In this document: positions 247 to 17,771 of the stretch, one piece after another
Layout of the letters: each line of letters opens with the position of its first letter
Numbering within the stretch: position 1 is the first letter of the stretch
Assembly: GCA_025352685.1 (NCBI GenBank)
Contig: JANXSN010000023.1
Location: 1-64,000, forward strand
DNA: 64,000 bases
DNA from: Sphingomonadales bacterium
GTDB taxonomy: Bacteria; Pseudomonadota; Alphaproteobacteria; Sphingomonadales; Sphingomonadaceae
Reading direction: 5' to 3'
The notes under the pieces: model-generated
Seen by the model: only the letters and a program-made list of their open reading frames with translations
What the model was told of the DNA's origin: nothing
The model's database searches: none
Program-made: the position numbers and the translations under genes

Positions 247-381
247 GGTCGAGTTCTCCGCTGTTGCGAGCACAGTGCCCGCAAGAATCGATATTTACTA
301 AGCGTGATGGGCAGTCGACCGCCCAGTGGATAGATGGCTTCGCTTGGTGTGCGACAGGGAACGCGCTGCTATCACGCGCCA

Positions 382-807
382 ATGCAACACGCTTCGACGA
401 ATCCGGACCACGCCGCCCGTTCAACCTTGCGCGATCGGCTAAGGGAAGTCCGCGGATTAGAAGGCGTCAGCGACGATTTAGCCCATCGTTCGATCATAGG
501 CCACGACGTCTATCGGAGTCGCGCAAACCGGCGCTCGTCCTTCTCCCCGCGTCAGTCGAGATGCTGTGCGCGGCGGTCAAGGTATGCGTCCAACAGGGGG
601 TCGCGATGGTGCCGCGCGGTGGCGGCGCGTCTTACACCGACGGCTACCTCTTGGCCGGCGAGGATCATGTCCTGATCGACACCTGCGCGCTCGACATGAT
701 TGAGATCGACGAGTCCAACGCCCTCATAAGGGTTGGCGCGGGCGTGGCCTGGGCGACGCTGCGGGCCGCGCTGGCGGCCAAGGGGTTGCGGACCCCTTTC
801 TGGGGCC
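382..807 (+). pseudogene. FAD-linked oxidase (PCMH type), N-terminal fragment
   Basis: The start at 382 reads into an N-terminus ending [10 protein letters not shown]. The frame then shifts by one near 515 into a clear FAD-binding PCMH domain with the flavin pyrophosphate motif PRGGG-SYTDGY (about 605-650), and a [21 protein letters not shown] segment up to about 807. Intact members of this glycolate/vanillyl-alcohol oxidase-like family run to 450 residues or more. Here the sequence jumps directly into a LeuD-like domain, so about three quarters of the gene is missing. I infer one indel plus a deletion junction at about 807. The fragment cannot make a working oxidase. Confidence 0.7.
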
Positions 808-1234
808 CCCTTCTCGTCACTGGCGACAATTTCGGCTGCGGATCGAGCCGCGAGCAGGCGCCGTGGGCGCTCGCCGACCTCGGCGTCCGCGTGTTGATTA
901 CGACCGGGTTCGAAGAAATATTCCAGTCGAACTGCTTCAAGAACGGCATGCTTCCGATCGTGCTGGCGGATCACGACGTGGCCCTTCTCGACGCGTCGGC
1001 GAAGGTCGGCGAGCCGTTCACGGTCGACCTCGAAGCGCAGCAAATCCGCCTCCCCAGACCGGCACCTTCGCCTTCACCGTCGAACCCGCCCGGCGCGAAG
1101 CCCTGTTCAACGGGTGGGACGAAATCGCCCGCATCCGCGTTGGCTTCGGAACCGCCATCGCCACGTTCGAACGACAACAGCGCACCCAAGCCCCCTGGCT
1201 GTGGACCGCCGAACAAGGACTCCAGAATGGCTGA
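808..1234 (+). pseudogene. LeuD-type hydratase small subunit (dimethylmaleate hydratase-like), broken
   Basis: The aconitase swivelling-domain core is visible: [17 protein letters not shown] (about 820-870), then the F-SNCFKNG segment. A one-base loss in a CCCC run near 1050 throws the reading frame. The correct C-terminus (TGTFAFTV, then a glycine-rich and PW-containing tail) continues in another frame to the stop at 1234. The N-terminus is missing because the sequence begins at the junction with the FAD oxidase fragment. Next to a 2,3-dimethylmalate lyase-like gene, this was probably the small subunit of a dimethylmaleate or related hydratase. No large subunit lies in the window. Confidence 0.7.
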
Positions 1235-2102
1235 TTCCAAAATCGCTGACCAGCGCCTCAAAACAAAACTCGCCGAGGGCAAATTCTTCGTCGTCCCCGG
1301 CGTCCAGGACATGATCGCCGCGGTCACCGCCGACCGCGTCGGCTTCGATATCGTTTATGGCACCGGCTACTGGCTCACCGCCTCCGCCTATGGCCTGCCC
1401 GACGCCGGTATCGCAACTTACACCCAGATGATCGACCGCATGGCGACGCTCGCGCGAACCAGCAAGGCGGCGGTCATCGCCGATGCCGACACCGGCTATG
1501 GCGGGCTGCTCAATGTGCACCACACGGTCAAGGGCTATGAAGCTGCGGGGATCGCCGCGATCCAGCTCGAGGACCAAGCATTCCCCAAGAAGTGCGGGCA
1601 CACGCCCTATAAAAGGCTGATCTCGACCGAGGACATGGTCGAGAAGATTAAGGTCGCGGTGGCTGCGCGAGACGAGATGCTGGTCATTGCCCGCACCGAC
1701 GCGCGACAATCCGAAGGCATGGACGGAGCGCTTCGCCGACTGGAGGCTTATGCGAAAGCCGGGGCGGACGTGCTGTTTCCTGAGGCGATGACTTCTGAGG
1801 AAGAAATGGGCATTGCCTGCGCCGCGTTCGACAAGCCGGTTATGGCGAACATGTCGAACGGCGGGCTGACTCCGGTGCTGAAAGGAAGCGAGCTAGCCGA
1901 GATCGGCTACGCCTTTGCCATCTACCCGTCGCAGACCAGCCTGGTCGCGGTGTCGGCAATGGAGGCGATGCTACGCCGGTTGAAGGATGACGGCGACGGC
2001 AATCCGGCCGACATTGCGCTGTTCGACTTCACCACATTCTGCCGCATGATCGGGTTTGAGGATGTTTGGGCGTTCGAGGAACAATGGAGCGCGAAGCGAT
2101 GA
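1227..2102 (+). CDS. isocitrate lyase/PEP mutase family lyase (2,3-dimethylmalate or 2-methylisocitrate lyase-like)
   Basis: 291 residues, a full-length single (beta/alpha)8 lyase of the ICL/PEP mutase superfamily. Metal-binding acids are in DADTG (86-90), and the catalytic loop motif KKCGH lies at 121-125. The cysteine in that loop marks C-C lyases (2-methylisocitrate, dimethylmalate, oxaloacetate-type) rather than PEP mutases. The start at 1227 overlaps the end of the LeuD-type gene by 8 bases, and the stop overlaps the ATG of the alcohol dehydrogenase remnant, so this was an operon. Pairing with a LeuD-type hydratase subunit suggests dimethylmalate lyase, cleaving to propionate and pyruvate. 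Exact substrate is inference. It is the only intact member of the cluster. Confidence 0.82.
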
Positions 2103-4888: not shown

Positions 4889-5452
4889 CTATTGTCGCCA
4901 GTGGCGCAAGGTGCACATCGGGATCGACGCAGAGACGTTTGATATCCGGGCTATTGAAGTCACCACCAATGCGATCGGAGATACCCCTGTCCTCCCAGAT
5001 CTGTTGGCGCAGATCCCGCAAGATGAGCAAATCCGCAGTGTCGGTGGGGACGGCGCGTACGACACCAAAAAGTGCCATGCCGCGATAGCTGCGCGCGGTG
5101 CTCATGCGGTCATTGTGGTCCGCCGCAACGGACGACCATGGAAGGAAGATGGCCCGGGCACGGCTGTCTGCAATGAAATACTTCGTGCGATCAAACAGCT
5201 TGGACGCACCATCTGGAAGAAATAGAGCGGTTATCATCGCCGCAGTCTCGTCGAAACGAAAATGCACTGCTTCAAGCTGCTCGGTCAGCGCGTCATAGCA
5301 CGCACCTTCGACCGTCAGACAACCGAGCTCAACGCCCGTCCTGCAATCCTCAACCGCTTCTCGCAAATTGGAACGCCCAATACCCTCCGCGTTGAATAGT
5401 AATCTGAAATAAAGGCCGCATCAGGCCCATTTAGAGTTGTGCAACAAAGCCC
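4889..5452 (+). mobile_element. IS5-family insertion sequence remnant, 5' truncated
   Basis: An IS5-type transposase C-terminal half abuts the antitoxin fragment at about 4889. The sequence GAGTTGTGCAACAAAGCCC at 5434-5452 resembles the terminal inverted repeat of IS5-group elements and probably marks the right end. No matching left end is visible, and the element carries a nonsense codon, so it cannot move by itself. Confidence 0.6.
4890..5399 (+). pseudogene. IS5-family transposase fragment
   Basis: Reads YCRQWRKVHIGID, DGAYDTKKCHAAIAARGA, then a TAG at 5223-5225, followed in the same frame by SGYHRRSLVETKM and a C-terminal stretch to the stop at 5399. The DDE-domain aspartate in GGDGAYD and the Y-x2-R-x3-E-x6-K block (YHRRSLVETKM) are both present. 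In intact relatives a tryptophan precedes SGYHRR, so TGG to TAG is the likely mutation. About half of the N-terminal sequence is absent. Confidence 0.7.
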
Positions 5453-6346
5453 ATCGCAGTTGCGCGCCAACGTCCTCGCTCGATTCATGGCGCGCGCGTA
5501 GAGGGCGCCGGTAAGCAAGGCGTTCATCGTTTGCGCCCGGTTGGTCGGCTCATCGCAAGAACTCGGCTCCAGAGCGCTGACGCCAGTGAGGTTGAAGGTT
5601 TCACCGAGGACACCAGCGGTGGTGACGGGCGATGGCATTCTTGTTCATAGGGATAATGTGCAAGGACAAGCAGCAGATTTACCAACTCGCGACCAATTTG
5701 TTCATCGACCGCGTACCCATTTGTCAACGCTAACCGCACGACCGCCAACCGCTCCGCCAATTCGTCCAACGCTTGCGGGGAGCGGGTATCAACCATTTCT
5801 TGTTCGGCATCCTTTTTCACCTGTCGAGCCGTTCTAGAACATTGGCTGTTTCACGGTGGTTTTGTGCGCATGGCCCCAGTCTTGCTCCAAGCCCACAATC
5901 GTATCGTAAAAGCCAAACAATAATCGGCCCGACCCGGGCCAGCAACGGCGCCGCTGCCGGCAGGCCAAAGTCACCCAGGCCAACGATGGGAGCCTCTTCG
6001 ACAATAGGCGTGCCGATTTTGTTGCGACTTTCATTTTTTTCTTTTCGACTGTGTCATCAACGTCGCATCGACGGCGATCGTTCCCCCTGCCGTGTGCAAT
6101 TAAATGGCGCGAGAAACCGGTCGAGGCCCGCTTGCCAGGGAAGCGAGCAAACGAAGTCAAGATCGCGATGGGGGTGTTCTCGGGATGCTGGAAAGCCGCT
6201 CGGGTCCAGTGGGGGGTTGGATCGGGCTTGAGCGCTGATCGCGTCGCCGCGTGCGCGTTCAACGAGCTTGGCTGCGCTCCAGACTTGCACAGACCACCGA
6301 CGACCCCCGTGATCAGTGAGAGCGGGGGTTTGAGGAGAGAACCACG
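5453..6346. other. interval without a firmly recognised gene
   Basis: About 890 bases between the IS5 end and the small glycine-zipper gene. Minus-strand frames look partly coding: a proline/alanine-rich piece (GLGDFGLPAAAPLLARVGPI, about 5900-5985) runs up to a frame change near 5830, after which the 5524-5820 frame follows. I suspect a broken gene but cannot name it. The last 60 bases before 6347 hold the ribosome site GAGGAG and presumably a promoter. Confidence 0.4.
5524..5820 (-). CDS. hypothetical small helical protein, possibly part of a broken gene
   Basis: 98 codons, product not recognised. The first 60 residues are a believable helical, charged sequence (DTRSPQALDELAERLAVVR, then a second helix), while the C-terminal third is Ser/Arg-rich and looks like an out-of-frame tail. 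The frame upstream of its ATG (about 5825-5900) also looks coding in another register, so this may be the middle of a frameshifted gene. It may have been damaged when the IS element arrived at 5452. There is no clear ribosome site. Confidence 0.28.
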   Translation of the reverse strand: MKKDAEQEMVDTRSPQALDELAERLAVVRLALTNGYAVDEQIGRELVNLLLVLAHYPYEQECHRPSPPLVSSVKPSTSLASALWSRVLAMSRPTGRKR

Positions 6347-8279: not shown

Positions 8280-9137
8280 ATGGCTCGTATTGCACACCTC
8301 TCCGACATGCATTTTGGTGCGAACGATCCAGTCATTGTCGCTGGCACCGAGGCGTGGTTAAACGAGCAGCGCCCGGACCTGATCATCATTTCGGGTGACT
8401 TCACGCAGCGCGCGCGCGTGCACCAGTTCGAAGCTGCCTCACAATATCTGCAACGCTTGCGGGGTGCAGGTCATCAGCTCCTGGTGATTCCCGGTAATCA
8501 CGACATTCCTCTTTTCGACATTGTACGGCGCTTTGCTGCGCCCCTTGATCGCTATCGCCATTACATCGATGACGCGCTCTATCCCTGGTTCGAAAACGAC
8601 GAAATCGCTGTATTGGGGCTGAACACGGCTCGTTCGCTTACATTCAGGGACGGACGGATAAATAAGGCGCAACTTGCCGTTCTTCGTCAACGCTTTCGTG
8701 CCGTCGCGGCCAGCAAGACACGTATCCTGGTAACCCATCACCCCTTGTTCGCCATGCCGATCGGCAGCGGCGGTCAGCTAAGCGAAGCCGTGGGGCATCA
8801 CGAACGCGCGGTCGAGGCAGTGTGCGAGGCGGGCGTTCACATCTCCCTGGCGGGACACTTTCATCGCACCTATGCCGAAGCCGCTCGCAAGATGGTCGAA
8901 AAGGCAGGCGGGTCGCTGGTAATACAGGCCGGAACAGCTACTTCGACCCGGTTACGCAATGACGAACCGCAGAGTTTCAATTGGATCGAGACGGATAGCT
9001 ACGATGCGGTCAACCTGCAGGTCATTGTGTGGCAGGACGCAAGGTTTACGGGCGCCAGTCGTGTCCGATATTGCTTCAACGGCCAGGATTGGGACCGTGT
9101 CGAGCTCGACCGCGGGGTGTTACGGCGCGAAGATTGA
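8280..9137 (+). CDS. calcineurin-like metallophosphoesterase
   Basis: 285 residues. All metal-binding motifs are present: D-M-H (D9, H11), GD (39-40), GNHD (72-75), a THHP block (152-155) and GHFH (192-195). Members hydrolyse phosphodiesters such as cyclic nucleotides or UDP-diacylglucosamine; this one has no substrate signature I can read. The ATG at 8280 places LSDMHFG in the usual position near the N-terminus; a GTG at 8253 would add 9 residues and is the alternative. There is no signal peptide, so it is cytosolic. It is divergent from the lipid kinase. Confidence 0.85.
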   Translation: MARIAHLSDMHFGANDPVIVAGTEAWLNEQRPDLIIISGDFTQRARVHQFEAASQYLQRLRGAGHQLLVIPGNHDIPLFDIVRRFAAPLDRYRHYIDDALYPWFENDEIAVLGLNTARSLTFRDGRINKAQLAVLRQRFRAVAASKTRILVTHHPLFAMPIGSGGQLSEAVGHHERAVEAVCEAGVHISLAGHFHRTYAEAARKMVEKAGGSLVIQAGTATSTRLRNDEPQSFNWIETDSYDAVNLQVIVWQDARFTGASRVRYCFNGQDWDRVELDRGVLRRED

Positions 9138-9277
9138 CGCCAGCGCCATAACGACGCTTTGCATCGACAAGGCAGGCGACCAGATTCGAGGTCGTCGTCT
9201 TTGACCGACGATTGGCAATTTCGACAGCGTGCACGAAGGCGTTTCCAAGCGCCGCTACCAGTAGAGGTTTGACGACA

Positions 9278-10834
9278 ATGCTTCTTATTCCGGTCCTTGG
9301 CGATCAACTTTCGGTTTCACTCGCCAGCCTTATGGACGTAGACCCTGCATGCGCTGTCATTTTGATGATGGAAGTACGCGATGAGGCGACATATGTTCGC
9401 CACCACAAGAAAAAGATCGCCTTTATCTTTTCAGCGATGCGTCATTTTGCGGTAGCGATGCGCGACCTCGGATGGGTCGTGGACTATGTTAACCTTGACG
9501 ATCCTGGTAACCTTCAAAGCATTGACGCCGAGGTAAAGCGTGCGGTCGAGCGACATCATCCAAGCGCTATCCGCGTCGTGGCTGGCGCCGAATATCGGGT
9601 ACGCCAGCGGCAGGACCAGTGGGCCGCCCTGACCGGGTTGCCAGTCGAAATACTCGAAGATGACCGCTTTATCTGCAGCCTCTCCCAGTTTTATACCTGG
9701 GCTCAGGCCCGTAAAGAGCATCGTCTCGAATATTTTTATCGTGACATGCGCCGCAAGACCGGCCTGCTGATGACACCTGAGGGCAAGCCCGAAGGCGCAA
9801 AATGGAACTTTGATCAGGACAATCGGGAGAAGCCTCGCGCAGGCCTGACCTATCCGCCACCAGAAAGGTTCGTGCGCGACGCGATCACGGACGAGGTCAT
9901 TGCCTTGGTAGCGGCCGAGTTCGATGAGCATTTTGGCGATCTGGAGCCGTTTGGCCTGCCCGTCACGCGCGAGCAGTCACGGAGCGCGCTCGCGCAGTTC
10001 ATCGCGACAGCCCTGCCAGACTTCGGACGGTACCAGGACGCCATGCTCGCCGGGCAAGACTATCTGTTCCACAGCTCTTTATCACTCTGTTTGAACGTCG
10101 GGCTGCTTGATCCACGTGAGGTCTGTCAAGCAGCGGTTGACGCGTATTCACGCGGCGAGGTTCCGTTAAACGCCGCTGAGGGGTTCGTCCGTCAAATCAT
10201 CGGATGGCGCGAGTATGTCCGCGGCATGTACTGGTGGGATATGCCCAAGCTCGTTGACCGAAACGTGCTGGATGCAGACCGTGCGCTGCCTGATTTCTAT
10301 TGGACCGGCGATACACAATTGCGCTGCTTGGCCCAAAGCATCGATCAGACAAAGCGTGAGGCCTACGCGCATCACATCCAGCGTCTGATGGTGCTGGGCA
10401 ATTTCGCGCTGATTGCGGGCATCGATCCCAAGCAAATATCTGACTGGTTCTTAGTCGTTTATTTCGATGCGTTCGAATGGGTGGAATTACCCAACGTCAT
10501 GGGGATGAGTCAATTTGCTGACGGGGGCATGATCGCGTCGAAGCCCTACGCTTCAGGCGGCGCGTATATTAATCGCATGTCCGACTATTGCGGCGATTGT
10601 TTCTATGATGTGAAGCAAAAGACCGGCGCTACCGCCTGCCCTTTCAATGCCCTTTATTGGGACTTTTTGGCCCGGCATGAAGAGCGGTTCAAAAAGAATA
10701 TGCGGATGGCCAATTCCTACGCGACCTGGCGCAAGTTTCCCGAAACCACGCAAACCGAATATCGCCAAAGCGCTGCCGCTTTCCTCGAAAAGCTTGTGCC
10801 AGCAGAACCGGAGTGGGCGCGAAAAAAGACGTGA
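9278..10834 (+). CDS. phrB: FeS-containing (6-4) photolyase / CryB-type cryptochrome
   Basis: 518 residues. The sequence follows the bacterial FeS-BCP family (Agrobacterium PhrB type): an N-terminal Rossmann antenna domain (LLIPVLGDQL), a helical FAD domain, and cysteines at 350, 438, 441 and 454, the spacing expected for the [4Fe-4S] ligands (C350 alone, then C-G-D-C and a third Cys in ACPFN). Members repair (6-4) photoproducts with blue light and carry a lumazine antenna. The ATG at 9278 is chosen because the family begins with this strand; AGAGG lies just upstream. No operon partner is apparent. Confidence 0.88.
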   Translation: MLLIPVLGDQLSVSLASLMDVDPACAVILMMEVRDEATYVRHHKKKIAFIFSAMRHFAVAMRDLGWVVDYVNLDDPGNLQSIDAEVKRAVERHHPSAIRVVAGAEYRVRQRQDQWAALTGLPVEILEDDRFICSLSQFYTWAQARKEHRLEYFYRDMRRKTGLLMTPEGKPEGAKWNFDQDNREKPRAGLTYPPPERFVRDAITDEVIALVAAEFDEHFGDLEPFGLPVTREQSRSALAQFIATALPDFGRYQDAMLAGQDYLFHSSLSLCLNVGLLDPREVCQAAVDAYSRGEVPLNAAEGFVRQIIGWREYVRGMYWWDMPKLVDRNVLDADRALPDFYWTGDTQLRCLAQSIDQTKREAYAHHIQRLMVLGNFALIAGIDPKQISDWFLVVYFDAFEWVELPNVMGMSQFADGGMIASKPYASGGAYINRMSDYCGDCFYDVKQKTGATACPFNALYWDFLARHEERFKKNMRMANSYATWRKFPETTQTEYRQSAAAFLEKLVPAEPEWARKKT

Positions 10835-11330: not shown

Positions 11331-12968
11331 ATGGAGGCAACGTCGACGACGACGCACGGCAGTGGGTTTCTTTCGCGCCAACGAAGCGTCGCCGCGCGAG
11401 GGTACCAGCGGTGGTTGATGCCGCCTTGTGCGCTCGCGATCCATCTCTGCATTGGCATGGCGTACGGGTTCAGCGTGTTTTGGCTGCCCCTTTCGCGGGC
11501 AATCGGGATCAGGGCGCCGATCGTCTGCAAGGAAATGACGTTTGTGCAGGCGATCACCACGTCGACGTGCGACTGGCGGGTCAGCGACCTGACGTGGACG
11601 TACAGCCTTTTTTTCGTGGTGCTCGGCGCGTCGGCGGCGGTCTGGGGTGGCTGGCTGGAGCGTGCGGGGCCACGCAAGGCGGGTGTTGTTGCCGGATGCT
11701 GCTGGGCCGGCGGGATCGCAATCGGCGCGGTCGGTGTATCGCTACATCAACTCTGGTTGCTATGGCTCGGAACCGGGTTGATCGGCGGAATTGGACTGGG
11801 ACTGGGCTACATCTCGCCCGTCTCCACGCTCATCAAATGGTTTCCCGACAAGCGCGGCATGGCGACGGGAATGGCGATCATGGGGTTCGGTGGCGGGGCA
11901 CTTATCGGTTCGCCGCTGGCTGGCGTGCTCATGAAGCATTTCGCGAGTGCCACAGGCGTTGGCGTCTGGCAGACCTTTCTCGTTCTTGCGGCTCTCTACT
12001 TCGTGTTCATGATCGGCGGCGCCCTGGGCTATCGTGTACCGCCGGCTGACTGGCGGCCTGCCGGCTGGACCGAGCCGGCACAGCCGACCGTGATTTCGGA
12101 CTGGCACGTGCACCTGAAAGATGCCCATCGGACGCCGCAATTCTGGCTGATCTGGTTCATCCTGCTGCTCAACGTCTCTGCGTCGATTGGGATCATCGGC
12201 GTTGCCTCGCCGATGATCCAGGAAATATTTGCCGGGCGACTTCTCCATCAGCCGGAGGTAGCGTTTCTCGATTTCAACGAAACGCAAAAAACTGCCGCCG
12301 CGGCAGTCGGCGCCGCCTTTGTCGGCTTTATCAGCCTTTTCAACATCGGCGGCCGTTTTTTCTGGGCATCGATTTCTGATCGGATTGGGCGAAAGACCAC
12401 CTACGGCTTCATGTTGGCACTGGGAGCAGCGCTCTATGGATTCGCCGCACCCCATGCAGCAGGTGATGCCAAGCTGCTTGCATTTGCCCTGACCTTCGGT
12501 GTGATTGCCTCGATGTATGGCGGCGGATTTGCGACCGTGCCGGCGTATCTGGCTGACATCTTCGGGACGCAATTCGTCGGCGCGATCCACGGTCGCCTGT
12601 TGACGGCATGGTCGACGGCGGGCGTGCTCGGGCCCCTGATTGTAACGCGCATGCGCGATTCAGCGATTGCCGCGGGCGCGCCACGCGCCACGGTGTATTT
12701 GCCGATCTATTGGGTGCTCGCGGGATTGCTGGTTACAGGATTCTTGGCAAACCTGTTCGTACGGCCCGTCGCCGCACGGTTCCGCATCGTCACCGAGGAC
12801 CTGATCCCAGCCCGCCCTTCCCAGACGACTGCCGCCACGCATGATGGCACGATGGTGGCCAGGAGGGCCCGGGCCAACCTCCTCTTCGCCTGGGCTGTGG
12901 TTTTCTTACCACTGGCCTGGGGCATTTGGATCACTGCCACAAAGGCGGTCGCACTCTTTGCGTCATGA
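11331..12968 (+). CDS. OFA-type MFS transporter
   Basis: 545 residues with about 12 predicted spans. Motifs: an early span ending GMAYGFSVFWLPL, a loop containing a Cys-rich insertion before RVSDLTWTYS, the span-4/5 segment YISPVSTLIKWFPDKRGMATG, and the repeat-2 loop SDRIGRKTTYG. This pattern matches the oxalate/formate antiporter (OFA) subfamily, which moves small mono- or dicarboxylates. The 50-residue loop after span 1 is a typical OFA feature. The substrate cannot be read from sequence. The gene stands alone between two intergenic gaps. The start is the first ATG, with only a weak upstream purine stretch. Confidence 0.85.
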   Translation: MEATSTTTHGSGFLSRQRSVAARGYQRWLMPPCALAIHLCIGMAYGFSVFWLPLSRAIGIRAPIVCKEMTFVQAITTSTCDWRVSDLTWTYSLFFVVLGASAAVWGGWLERAGPRKAGVVAGCCWAGGIAIGAVGVSLHQLWLLWLGTGLIGGIGLGLGYISPVSTLIKWFPDKRGMATGMAIMGFGGGALIGSPLAGVLMKHFASATGVGVWQTFLVLAALYFVFMIGGALGYRVPPADWRPAGWTEPAQPTVISDWHVHLKDAHRTPQFWLIWFILLLNVSASIGIIGVASPMIQEIFAGRLLHQPEVAFLDFNETQKTAAAAVGAAFVGFISLFNIGGRFFWASISDRIGRKTTYGFMLALGAALYGFAAPHAAGDAKLLAFALTFGVIASMYGGGFATVPAYLADIFGTQFVGAIHGRLLTAWSTAGVLGPLIVTRMRDSAIAAGAPRATVYLPIYWVLAGLLVTGFLANLFVRPVAARFRIVTEDLIPARPSQTTAATHDGTMVARRARANLLFAWAVVFLPLAWGIWITATKAVALFAS

Positions 12969-13868: not shown

Positions 13869-14252
13869 TTATTTCAGACTGTTGAGGTACGCGAGCAACG
13901 GTTCGACCTTGTGCGGGTCGGTCATCCCGGCAAACGCCATTTTGGTGCCCGGCACGATCTTGCGTGGCGAGGCAATATAGGTCCTGAGCTGCGCGCTCGT
14001 CCAGCTCAAACCAGAGGCTTTCATGGCCGAACTGTAAGGATAGCCTTCAACCGATCCCGACTTTCGGCCGACGATGCCAAACAACGATGGTCCGTTGGCT
14101 CGCCGACCGGCAACCACTGAGTGGCAAAGCGCGCAGTTTTGTTGAAAGACTTTCTGTCCCTGAACAGCATCGTTTGACACCGGCGGCGGTCCAGCCGCGA
14201 TTATCAGGCCGGCGACGCTTGTCGCGAGAGCAGCGTTTAGAATGCGAGCCAT
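13869..14252 (-). CDS. class I c-type cytochrome (cytochrome c2/c550-like)
   Basis: 127 residues with a signal peptide (to about 20), one haem site CALCH (40-44) and a likely axial Met at 105 in PGTKMAF, which is the standard class I arrangement. NGPSLFGIVGRKSG and the C-terminal helix LLAYLNSLK are also typical. It should be a soluble or tethered periplasmic electron carrier. Its start lies inside the end of the upstream cytochrome-porin gene (16-base overlap), so the two are translated from one message and probably form one electron path from outer membrane to periplasm. Confidence 0.88.
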   Translation of the reverse strand: MARILNAALATSVAGLIIAAGPPPVSNDAVQGQKVFQQNCALCHSVVAGRRANGPSLFGIVGRKSGSVEGYPYSSAMKASGLSWTSAQLRTYIASPRKIVPGTKMAFAGMTDPHKVEPLLAYLNSLK

Positions 14253-15589
14253 GTGAAAATCCTCAAAGTGTTGTTGTCGGAAGCATTGGCACCGGCGCCA
14301 TCATAGTTTGTTCGTGCGCCATTGAACTTGCCATATGCAGTATATTGCACACCCATCCGAACGTTGAACCAGGAACCGACAGGCGAGCCGTTGCCGAACG
14401 GCGTGCCATCCAATTGGAATGTTACGCCGTTGCTGTCGGGTCGACCAGTGAGCCCGCCGAAGCGGACGACATCGGTAGAGCCCGTCGTATCGAACACACC
14501 CACTGTGGCGCCGATCGCGTTGCGCCAATAGTAGGAGGCATCGACGCGAATATCGTCGAGATTGGCATCAGTGTTTCCGACATTGCCCTGCAGGAAAGAC
14601 GCGCGTAAATTCTGCCGCTCGTGAATGTAGCGGGCGTTGACACTGAAGATGTCGCCGTTCGCCCGAGGAAGTTGGTACGACGCGTCCAGCCCCAAATCGG
14701 TGTAGCGGTCGGTCACGCCGGCGGTATGATCGCGCCCAGGATACAGGTTGGCACGTAGCGCGAGGGCACCGATTTCGAGTGTCCCGGCCCCAACCTGCGT
14801 CTGAAATGCAACGCGGGCGTAGGGTGCCACGCCGTTGATATCGCCGAGCGCGTAAGGATCAGTCCCCAAGCTGGTCAACAACGAGGCGCTCGGGGACTTA
14901 TAACCGCCGGCCTCAATGTATAGTTTTGAGTCGACCCATGCGTACGCCGTCAAACCAAGTGTGTTCTGCGCAAGGCCACCAGCAAACAGCGGCACGGTTG
15001 AAGGGGAAGGCGACAGCGCCGAGGTCGTATACGGAAAACCCCAGGCCGGTACAGTGTTCCACGGGTCTTGCACGCCCGGAGCATTGTTCAAACTGATGCC
15101 GGCCACAACGTTCTTCCCACCCACGTCGACTGTTGTTACCGCACGCAAGTCGAGGTTGTCCCAACTGGTTTGTTTGCTGACGCCGCCGTAGGTTACCTGA
15201 ACAAACCCCCCGAAATGAGTGCCAACCCCGCCTGCAAGGAACAAGCTGACTTGGTCGAGCGCAAGATTGTTATTCGTATGAAAGTCTGGTGTCGGCGGAG
15301 CGGCTTGCGCCTTCTTGGTGGTCACGAACGAAGCCACAACCTGCGCGGAGAGCGGTAAGTTGAATTTGTCTGTTCTGCTGGTGTAGCCCCCAATTTTGAA
15401 GGCGCGGCCATAAGGAGTTAGCTGGGGTCCATAGCCGCCAACGTGGCAGGCGATGCACTTTTGACCGGTTTGCTCAGCAAAGCTGGGGACCGCTGCGGCA
15501 GGGGTCGCACACGCCATAATTGCAATTGTTAATGCGGCGGCGAGCCAGCGAGCCAGGAAAGCACAACGAGGCAATATCTGATGGGGCAT
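14237..15589 (-). CDS. outer-membrane cytochrome-porin fusion (Cyc2-like)
   Basis: 450 residues. A signal peptide (to about 33) is followed at once by PSFAEQTGQKCIACH: a single c-haem site at 45-49 in the context that fused cytochrome-porins (Cyc2 family) show, then G-LTPYGRAFKIGGYT. The remaining 390 residues are alternating polar/hydrophobic beta-strands with aromatic girdles, ending in Phe, as in outer-membrane barrels of about 16 strands. Cyc2 proteins oxidise Fe(II) at the cell surface, and relatives are found in many bacteria without proof of that role. The overlap with a mono-haem cytochrome c supports electron transfer across the envelope. Actual donor is inference. A ribosome site is weak. 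Confidence 0.7.
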   Translation of the reverse strand: MPHQILPRCAFLARWLAAALTIAIMACATPAAAVPSFAEQTGQKCIACHVGGYGPQLTPYGRAFKIGGYTSRTDKFNLPLSAQVVASFVTTKKAQAAPPTPDFHTNNNLALDQVSLFLAGGVGTHFGGFVQVTYGGVSKQTSWDNLDLRAVTTVDVGGKNVVAGISLNNAPGVQDPWNTVPAWGFPYTTSALSPSPSTVPLFAGGLAQNTLGLTAYAWVDSKLYIEAGGYKSPSASLLTSLGTDPYALGDINGVAPYARVAFQTQVGAGTLEIGALALRANLYPGRDHTAGVTDRYTDLGLDASYQLPRANGDIFSVNARYIHERQNLRASFLQGNVGNTDANLDDIRVDASYYWRNAIGATVGVFDTTGSTDVVRFGGLTGRPDSNGVTFQLDGTPFGNGSPVGSWFNVRMGVQYTAYGKFNGARTNYDGAGANASDNNTLRIFTWLAF

Positions 15590-16566: not shown

Positions 16567-17771
16567 TTACCCCGTCCGCTGGGCCTCAAGGCGTGCCAGC
16601 GCCTCGCGCCAACCCCCGACCCGCGATCGTGCTGCGTCGAGCACGATATCGACTGCGCTCAGCGCCGCTGTCCCGCTGCCGCGGTCGCGTATCCAGGCAA
16701 TGCCCGAGCCGATCAGACCGAACAGCAGACCGCCAAGATAGAGGAAGTCACCATAGCGCTCCATGAAGCCACGCTGTTCGCGGTTGAGATAGTCGAGCGC
16801 TCCGGGGTGGACGGGCACGTGCGCAGTTGTCGCGGCCGCCGAATTCTCGAAGTCGGGCGCGCGGATGGCGCTGGTTTCCGGAAGGCGTGCTCCATAGTCG
16901 GGTCGCAAGGTAAAGATCAGGCGGGTCAGCTCGGACACAGTCCCGCGCCCCAAACCAACGCGCGCCATCACGAGATAGGGCGTGCGATTGTTTTCACCTC
17001 CGCGGCAGGCACCGGTGGCCCTCCAGCAAACGCCCCAGCCGGAATCGTGACAGGCTTTAAATCGGGTAAACGCGTTGTGATACCGTCGCCGTCGACGCCA
17101 CTGACGAACGCAATTTTTGCGTCGGGCACTGCGCGTTGCACGTCACTCACGAACTCGCGGGCTTCTGCGCTATTCGGCGCGACGACCGTCGCGACGGCAT
17201 CCACCCGCCCGGCGGCGAGCGCGGCCGATATCTGCGTCGGCAACAGGCGAAGCACCGACGTCTCATGAGAGAATGGGGGCGTCGGTGCAATTTACTGGCC
17301 CAAGTGAAGCCCATAATAGCCCAGCACCCGGGGAAGAAGGGCAAGGTCGGCGGCATCCTGCTCGACCATGCCCAGCCGCTTGCCGCCAAGCTTGGCGATG
17401 CTTTCAAGTTTCGCCGCTGCAGGCGCGACGATGAGCAGTGCCTGATCGTGGAGCACAGCGATGCTGGCGCTGTCGCTTGGCAACAGCGCATCGGGACGAA
17501 CGATGGCCAAATCGACCTGCCCGTCCTGTAGTGCAAGTGCACTTGCCCGCATATCCCTCGTCGTCAGCACAGTCAGGCGCAAATCTGCCTTCTTGGCCGC
17601 AAAACTGCGCGCGATCGCTTGGACGATGCGGACTTCTCCACTCCCGGGCGGTCCAACTGCGATCCTCAGCCGCGTCGGCTGCATCGCCCAGATTGCCAGC
17701 AACGTCGTGACCGCGAGCGCGGCGACTGCAAAAAGGAACAGCGTCTCGCGCCGCAAATACCAACGATCCAT
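16567..17771 (-). pseudogene. TAXI-family TRAP transporter solute receptor, frameshifted
   Basis: Three consecutive minus-strand frames together spell a TAXI receptor. The first (17771 to about 17300) has an N-terminal span (FLFAVAALAVTTLLAIWAM), RIAVGPPGSGEVRI, the QDGQVDLAIVRPDALL core and KLGGKRLGMVEQD. The second (17255-16968) carries LLPTQISAALAAGRVDAVA and ends at ARPIS. The third (16971-16567) gives the C-terminal part with a further span (YLGGLLFGLIGSGIAWI). The stop at 17292 and the TGA overlap at 16968-16971 break it. Intact members bind small acids or amino acids for TRAP or stand-alone uptake. Two or more indels are needed to restore it, so it is probably non-functional. Confidence 0.72.

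Follow-up and report, generated by a model that had tools for sequence, protein, structure and literature searches.

A Cyc2-like fused cytochrome-porin whose gene overlaps that of a periplasmic cytochrome c in a sphingomonad genome

Two overlapping reading frames on the minus strand of the window (the whole 64,000-nucleotide stretch of sphingomonad DNA that was analysed), at 14237-15589 and 13869-14252, raise the question of whether such a bacterium may take up electrons from outside the cell, and from which donor. A first-pass annotation had described them as a Cyc2-like outer-membrane cytochrome-porin and a coupled mono-haem cytochrome c, and both frames are indeed found at these places. The longer frame encodes a protein of 450 residues (AVPSFAEQTGQKCIACHVGGYGPQL), where the definition of Cyc2 asks for at least 365 (PMC8406198), in which a signal-peptide-like start is followed by AVPSFAEQTGQKCIACHVGGYGPQLTPYGRAFKIGGYT and finally by the C-terminus IFTWLAF. 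The presumed Sec signal peptide (residues 1-33; 15491-15589, minus strand), assigned by eye and coinciding with a low-confidence helix of the structural model (8-25), would be cleaved before VPSF. Next comes the N-terminal haem segment (residues 34-75; 15365-15490, minus strand), with three short model helices (35-41, 45-48 and 59-66) and many invariant columns in both of our alignments, A1 and A2. As had been noted at the outset, there is a single c-haem motif behind the signal-peptide-like start: CIACH (residues 45-49; 15443-15457, minus strand) is the only CxxCH of the protein, is invariant in the 66 rows of A2, and presumably attaches the haem. The remainder (residues 80-450; 14240-15352, minus strand) is predicted to form a porin barrel of 16 beta strands, probably located in the outer membrane. 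No Pfam model matches the protein, a PDB sequence search with it found nothing, and NCBIfam returned a single chance match (E = 0.13). Full-length homologues nevertheless exist, which argues that this is not a chance frame; the nearest, with 66% identity, is a plasmid protein of Polymorphobacter (Sphingomonadales). This nearest named relative, whose genome (evidently G1255) bears the family code f1 as the window genome does, is also the basis for calling the organism a sphingomonad.

Profile comparisons point to a strong homology of the porin to Cyc2, a haem-bearing outer-membrane pore with which iron oxidisers draw in external electrons, in line with the Cyc2-like nature proposed in the first-pass annotation. 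In these comparisons, the characterised Cyc2 proteins, including that of Acidithiobacillus ferrooxidans, were represented by stand-ins, namely sequences of the family coded f193 and the rus-like operon of genome G1081. An HMM built from the rus-operon Cyc2 of G1081 (L171, the porin of locus L195) and two sister rows matched the window porin with E = 7.8e-90, and the same profile stripped of its haem end still matched the barrel alone (1e-81), so that the barrel is also homologous to that of rus-type Cyc2. The Cluster 1-like profile reached 4.3e-20 (7e-6 to 8e-6 for the barrel) and the Cluster 3-like profile 3.6e-5 (no match to the barrel), both being derived from sets that were chosen by motif and not by tree. 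Cluster 1 Cyc2 (Mariprofundus PV-1 type), as seen through its stand-ins, is thus alike in architecture and haem segment, but its barrel is barely recognisable in the window porin and its sequences form a separate group in the tree.

Zetaproteobacteria have Cyc2 of Clusters 1 and 3 (McAllister et al., PMC7029218), and since the f193 genomes (65 of the 89 matched genomes of the phylum sample, by our own count) bear one or both of PAFARQTG..CHFQ and PVFARKYG..CHTMF sequences, f193 most likely represents this group. For a Cluster 2 stand-in, rusticyanin was sought in 73 genomes. In one of them, G1081, a family member is followed 7 kb downstream by a rusticyanin-like gene, with E = 1e-39 but short of the curated cut-off. 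The order in its locus L195 is porin, small ORF, COX1, COX15-CtaA, UbiA/CtaB-like gene and rusticyanin-like copper protein, which is close to the rus operons described in PMC10654088 but without cyc1. In this locus, the ORF that separates cyc2 from the cox genes (8770-9357, minus strand) matches no Pfam model and occupies the place of the Cup protein.

The AlphaFold2 model of the porin, obtained with 66 aligned sequences (A2, i.e. the query and 65 relatives), is confident, with a pLDDT of 88.5 and a pTM of 0.85; it supersedes a single-sequence model (pLDDT 29.9), which was discarded. It contains 16 strands, the first at residues 80-91 and the last at 441-449, and terminates with WLAF, in keeping with the barrel ending in Phe that had been postulated for this protein. 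Because the haem segment precedes the strands, the predicted architecture matches that given for Cyc2 by Keffer et al. (PMC8406198), an N-terminal cytochrome joined to a porin of 16 strands that resembles OprO/OprP. The haem segment may well be seated as a plug in the barrel, with the haem in the pore. Foldseek placed porins first (BpsOmp38, Omp32 and OmpT, with OprP 2o4v at rank 11) at TM-scores of 0.3-0.6, and VIA-align retrieved OmpC/OmpF-type porins with Z of about 22 and an rmsd of 3.1-4.0 over about 300 residues. A shared barrel fold is no proof of function. The phosphate porins OprO/OprP and the general porins have a similar barrel, but are devoid of the haem segment. The MtrAB, PioAB and MtoAB systems likewise move electrons across the outer membrane, but do so with a 26-stranded barrel and a separate decahaem cytochrome (PMC8406198), as opposed to 16 strands and one fused haem here; lacking such a large barrel and such a partner, the window porin does not belong with MtrAB/PioAB.

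According to Keffer et al. (PMC8406198), Cyc2 proteins carry the signature AXPXFAR[Q/K][T/Y] upstream of the haem motif and PXL shortly downstream of CXXCH. The corresponding stretch of the window porin, AVPSFAEQT, departs from AxPxFAR[QK][TY] in having Glu for Arg, and because this strict signature is absent even though the homology is clear, the protein is a variant of the known Cyc2-like fused cytochrome-porins. The Arg is present in 131 of the 168 family sequences that were gathered and absent from 37, where it is replaced by A (22), E (4), Q (3), M (2), V (2), S (2), I (1) or D (1), about half of these 37 coming from Acidocella/Acidiphilium and closely related to the scan query. The PQL of the window porin lies five residues after CxxCH, a haem loop two residues longer than that of rus-operon Cyc2. 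Among the same 168 sequences this spacing is three residues in 102, four in 23 and five in 36, the five-residue loop requiring at least four changes on the tree and being common to a large clade. A filter on the published signature would miss the branch to which this porin belongs, since the Arg is missing from more than a fifth of the gathered sequences and from 25 of the 124 in the thinned tree, where at least eight changes are needed to account for it.

These 124 rows were obtained from the 168 gathered sequences with a hand-made list of near-duplicates; seven loci were skipped by hand (five copies of rows already present, and L113 and L121 by oversight), the gathering pattern does not pick up rows such as L118, and sequences shorter than 340 residues after trimming were left out. 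The tree was computed by a quick method with SH-aLRT as sole support and a midpoint root, and two long rows (L148 and L213) are flagged. On one side of its starred branch lie 98 rows that comprise the window porin, the rus-operon protein and the Acidocella and Acidiphilium proteins; the rows resembling Clusters 1 and 3 fall outside this group. With rus-operon Cyc2 (the Acidithiobacillus ferrooxidans type, Cluster 2 of McAllister and Keffer), represented here by the rus-like operon of G1081, the window porin shares full-length homology, barrel included, a single haem and periplasmic carriers as neighbours, but it falls in another subclade, has the altered Arg position and the longer loop, and is accompanied by neither rusticyanin nor an oxidase operon. 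The Acidocella/Acidiphilium homologues (PMC10715153), members of the same 98-row group, also lack the Arg (FAAQTG) and in some cases stand beside a mono-haem cytochrome; they differ in their short haem loop, in belonging to acidophiles, and in being 36-38% identical to the window porin.

In the tree the window porin has the Polymorphobacter plasmid protein as its sister (99*), a closer relative than its counterpart from G001, a genome of the same genus. The row of G451, a genome of another family, nests among the sphingomonad rows. Together with the patchy occurrence (two of the seven genomes of the genus, the window genome included), this suggests horizontal transfer, and the porin has probably spread by this route. 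A single-protein search, in which the window genome itself is counted, found the porin in 3 of 98 relatives, in 9 of the 397 family genomes, which fall into 6 of 96 genera, and in 14 of 385 genomes at class level. Profile A1 gave matches in 89 of the 398 phylum genomes and, in another class (that of G565), in 64 of 369, many of these matches covering the haem end only. In genome_contigs, at least 569 of 595 candidate stretches, the best 80 of which were kept, encode a relative of the first sequence of the alignment, and the MAGs and isolates that contain relatives have been assigned to many phyla. The family is therefore widespread, although mostly characterised by sequence alone, and the porin is not peculiar to this genome. 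Literature searches over titles and passages found no description of a Cyc2-like porin/cytochrome pair in sphingomonads. One study (PMC13055281) counts 11 MAGs that have one or more of six genes for iron oxidation, a Sphingomonadaceae MAG among them; for this MAG the passages concerned name MtrA and MtrB and not Cyc2.

The partner, a protein of 127 residues (13869-14252, minus strand), is a periplasmic class I mono-haem cytochrome c, as indicated by its match to PF00034 (E = 1.2e-7; 33.4 bits against a cut-off of 21.3) and by its relatives among solved c-type cytochromes, the best of which (E down to 3.2e-30) are of the cy, c and c2 types. It has a single CxxCH motif, CALCH (residues 40-44; 14121-14135, minus strand), and its signal-peptide-like N-terminus suggests that it is exported. 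The reading frames of the two genes share 16 nucleotides (14237-14252, minus strand), the ATG of the cytochrome being composed of the last base of one porin codon and the TG of the Trp codon that is fourth from the end. A Shine-Dalgarno-like GAGGA (14260-14264, minus strand), spanning Leu, Arg (AGG) and Ile codons of the porin, lies 7 nt before this ATG.

A start of the cytochrome inside the end of the porin, on which the earlier claim of translational coupling was based, recurs among relatives. The cytochrome begins at the Trp-codon ATG in seven of the nine porin-bearing genomes of the family, the window genome G000 being one of them (the others are G1255, evidently the genome of the Polymorphobacter record, G009, G1232, G1343, G1350 and G1381), and GAGG precedes the ATG in six of these seven, the exception being G1350, where a second ATG follows. 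As to the remaining two, G1400 has the ATG with no cytochrome behind the porin, and in G001 the contig ends. The porin of G1381, a genome that is 76% complete, has an internal stop. In wider sets, Trp occupies the overlap position in 121 of 134 loci, and a start codon at this position that opens a frame of at least 90 residues occurs in 17 of 141 rows (duplicates included), with a Shine-Dalgarno-like site 4-11 nt upstream in 4 of those 17 as against 2 of the 124 others. Taken at the level of sequence, this arrangement supports translational coupling of porin and cytochrome.

Electron carriers also lie near the porins of the wider family. Of the 474 ORFs situated less than 1 kb from a family porin, 82 resemble periplasmic one-electron carriers, compared with 4 of the 471 that are farther than 2 kb away. 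In this screen the HMMs for HiPIP and cupredoxin derive from loci inside the tested set, some genes figure twice, only loci with long flanks contribute far ORFs, and the cytochrome behind L008/L202 was missed. By motif and the two HMMs, a carrier lies on the same strand within 1 kb at 64 of 136 loci. The partner may be a mono-haem or di-haem cytochrome, a HiPIP or a cupredoxin, and Pfam matches bear out examples of cytochrome, HiPIP and copper-binding protein in the subset checked. Of the nine plasmid records with a match, five were inspected, and in each of them an annotated c-type cytochrome gene follows that of the porin. A mono-haem cytochrome adjoins the porin at 6 of 18 Acidiphilium/Acidocella-type loci; neither the ORF behind the porin in L172 nor the small ORF after cyc2 in L195 matched a carrier. 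Such neighbours have already been reported for Acetobacteraceae (PMC10715153). That relatives have such varied neighbours speaks for a conduit carrying electrons across the outer membrane. In locus L199 of G451, a probably secreted protein is encoded between porin and cytochrome (5394-5978, minus strand), with a weak hemerythrin match (E = 0.0036, below the cut-off).

The genes and their motifs, the homology to rus-operon Cyc2, the 16-strand model, the conserved coupling and the varied carriers near relatives make it probable that porin and cytochrome constitute a minimal inward electron conduit through the outer membrane. The barrel would admit a small dissolved reductant close to the haem at the periplasmic mouth, and the reduced haem would deliver single electrons to the coupled periplasmic cytochrome c, which would pass them on to a haem-copper oxidase; we infer the direction of flow, the donor and the hand-over to the oxidase. 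In the window genome (3.2 Mb in 116 contigs, given as 99.99% complete), which has one COX1-family match, the conduit would be a supplementary electron source and not a basis for autotrophic growth. RuBisCO large subunit, the sole autotrophy marker sought, has no match in this genome, leaving autotrophy unsupported; HiPIP (PF01355) has none either, so that a HiPIP as partner was dropped for this genome, even if G001 has a HiPIP-like gene (E = 0.002, below the cut-off) before its porin. These findings, together with a sub-threshold match to MtrB_PioB (PF11854), fit an electron input to the respiratory chain of a heterotroph, not lithoautotrophy. Against this reading stand the Glu and the longer loop of the haem segment, the missing RuBisCO match, the sporadic occurrence in genus and family, the failure of the screen to find a same-strand carrier within 1 kb at more than half of the loci and at two thirds of the Acidiphilium/Acidocella-type loci, the solitary porin of G1400 and the modest TM-scores.

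Ferrous iron is the likeliest single candidate for the donor, with a chance that we would place slightly short of even. The first-pass annotation had suggested extracellular electron exchange or Fe(II) oxidation, but the latter is only one possible use: the porin groups with the large clade around rus-operon Cyc2, apart from the stand-ins for neutrophilic iron oxidisers, and lacks the signature Arg. Fe(II) is a plausible donor, although the genome gave no RuBisCO match and no characterised Cyc2 is close to the porin. The same inward conduit might possibly be fed by something else, for instance Mn(II), Cu(I), reduced phenolics or humics, or the electron shuttles of neighbours, a rather doubtful reading that overlaps with the preceding one and differs in the donor only. 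The spread of relatives over MAGs and isolates of many phyla and the lichen origin of the isolate whose plasmid carries the nearest homologue would agree with it, and Cyc2 may have additional functions (Keffer et al., PMC8406198), but the three members of the wider family tested biochemically oxidise Fe(II) (PMC8406198), and nothing in the inspected neighbourhood indicates another substrate.

A more specific proposal, which seems unlikely, is that the long-haem-loop, Arg-less branch has shifted its donor and forms a mobile two-gene cassette with an exchangeable carrier (cytochrome, HiPIP or cupredoxin), held together by a Shine-Dalgarno site and start codon in the conserved C-terminal Trp region of the porin, and offering aerobic heterotrophs an extra intake from dissolved extracellular reductant.

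Electron export, with Fe(III) chelates, quinones or other dissolved oxidants accepting electrons from the pair during oxygen shortage, seems improbable. The partner is of the c2/c type, cytochromes that normally feed oxidases, and MtrB_PioB, the sole metal-reduction gene sought, stayed below its cut-off. A single haem could, on the other hand, work both ways. Cyc2 and Cyc1 isoforms serve ferric iron reduction in acidithiobacilli, and Acidiphilium and Acidocella, with homologues in the same 98-row group, reduce ferric iron (PMC10715153). An ordinary solute porin, sharing its fold with such porins and having a haem that serves in redox sensing or in the structure without any net transfer of electrons, is very unlikely given the varied periplasmic carriers that adjoin the family, some in overlapping genes, and the many invariant columns of the haem segment.

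If the pair works as an inward conduit, it would give a group of aerobic heterotrophs a cheap route for drawing on outside electrons. A sphingomonad should be easier to grow and to knock out than obligate iron oxidisers, so that the role of many Cyc2 homologues would become directly testable through this pair.

Other genes of the window deserve mention. A two-CxxCH frame followed by a molybdopterin oxidoreductase (PF00384 and PF01568; 17984-21466, plus strand), perhaps formate dehydrogenase-like, might be a second electron source near the porin/cytochrome pair; an MFS transporter lies at 11331-12968. A TAXI/NMT1-like solute-binding protein gene (16567-17771, minus strand) seems to be split into three frames (17292-17771, 16968-17255 and 16567-16971), the first having a weak Pfam match and the last none. 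Finally, a frame of 612 residues (264-2102, plus strand) matches FAD_binding_4, Aconitase_C and PEP_mutase in a row, which is an unusual combination, and may be a fusion or a remnant.
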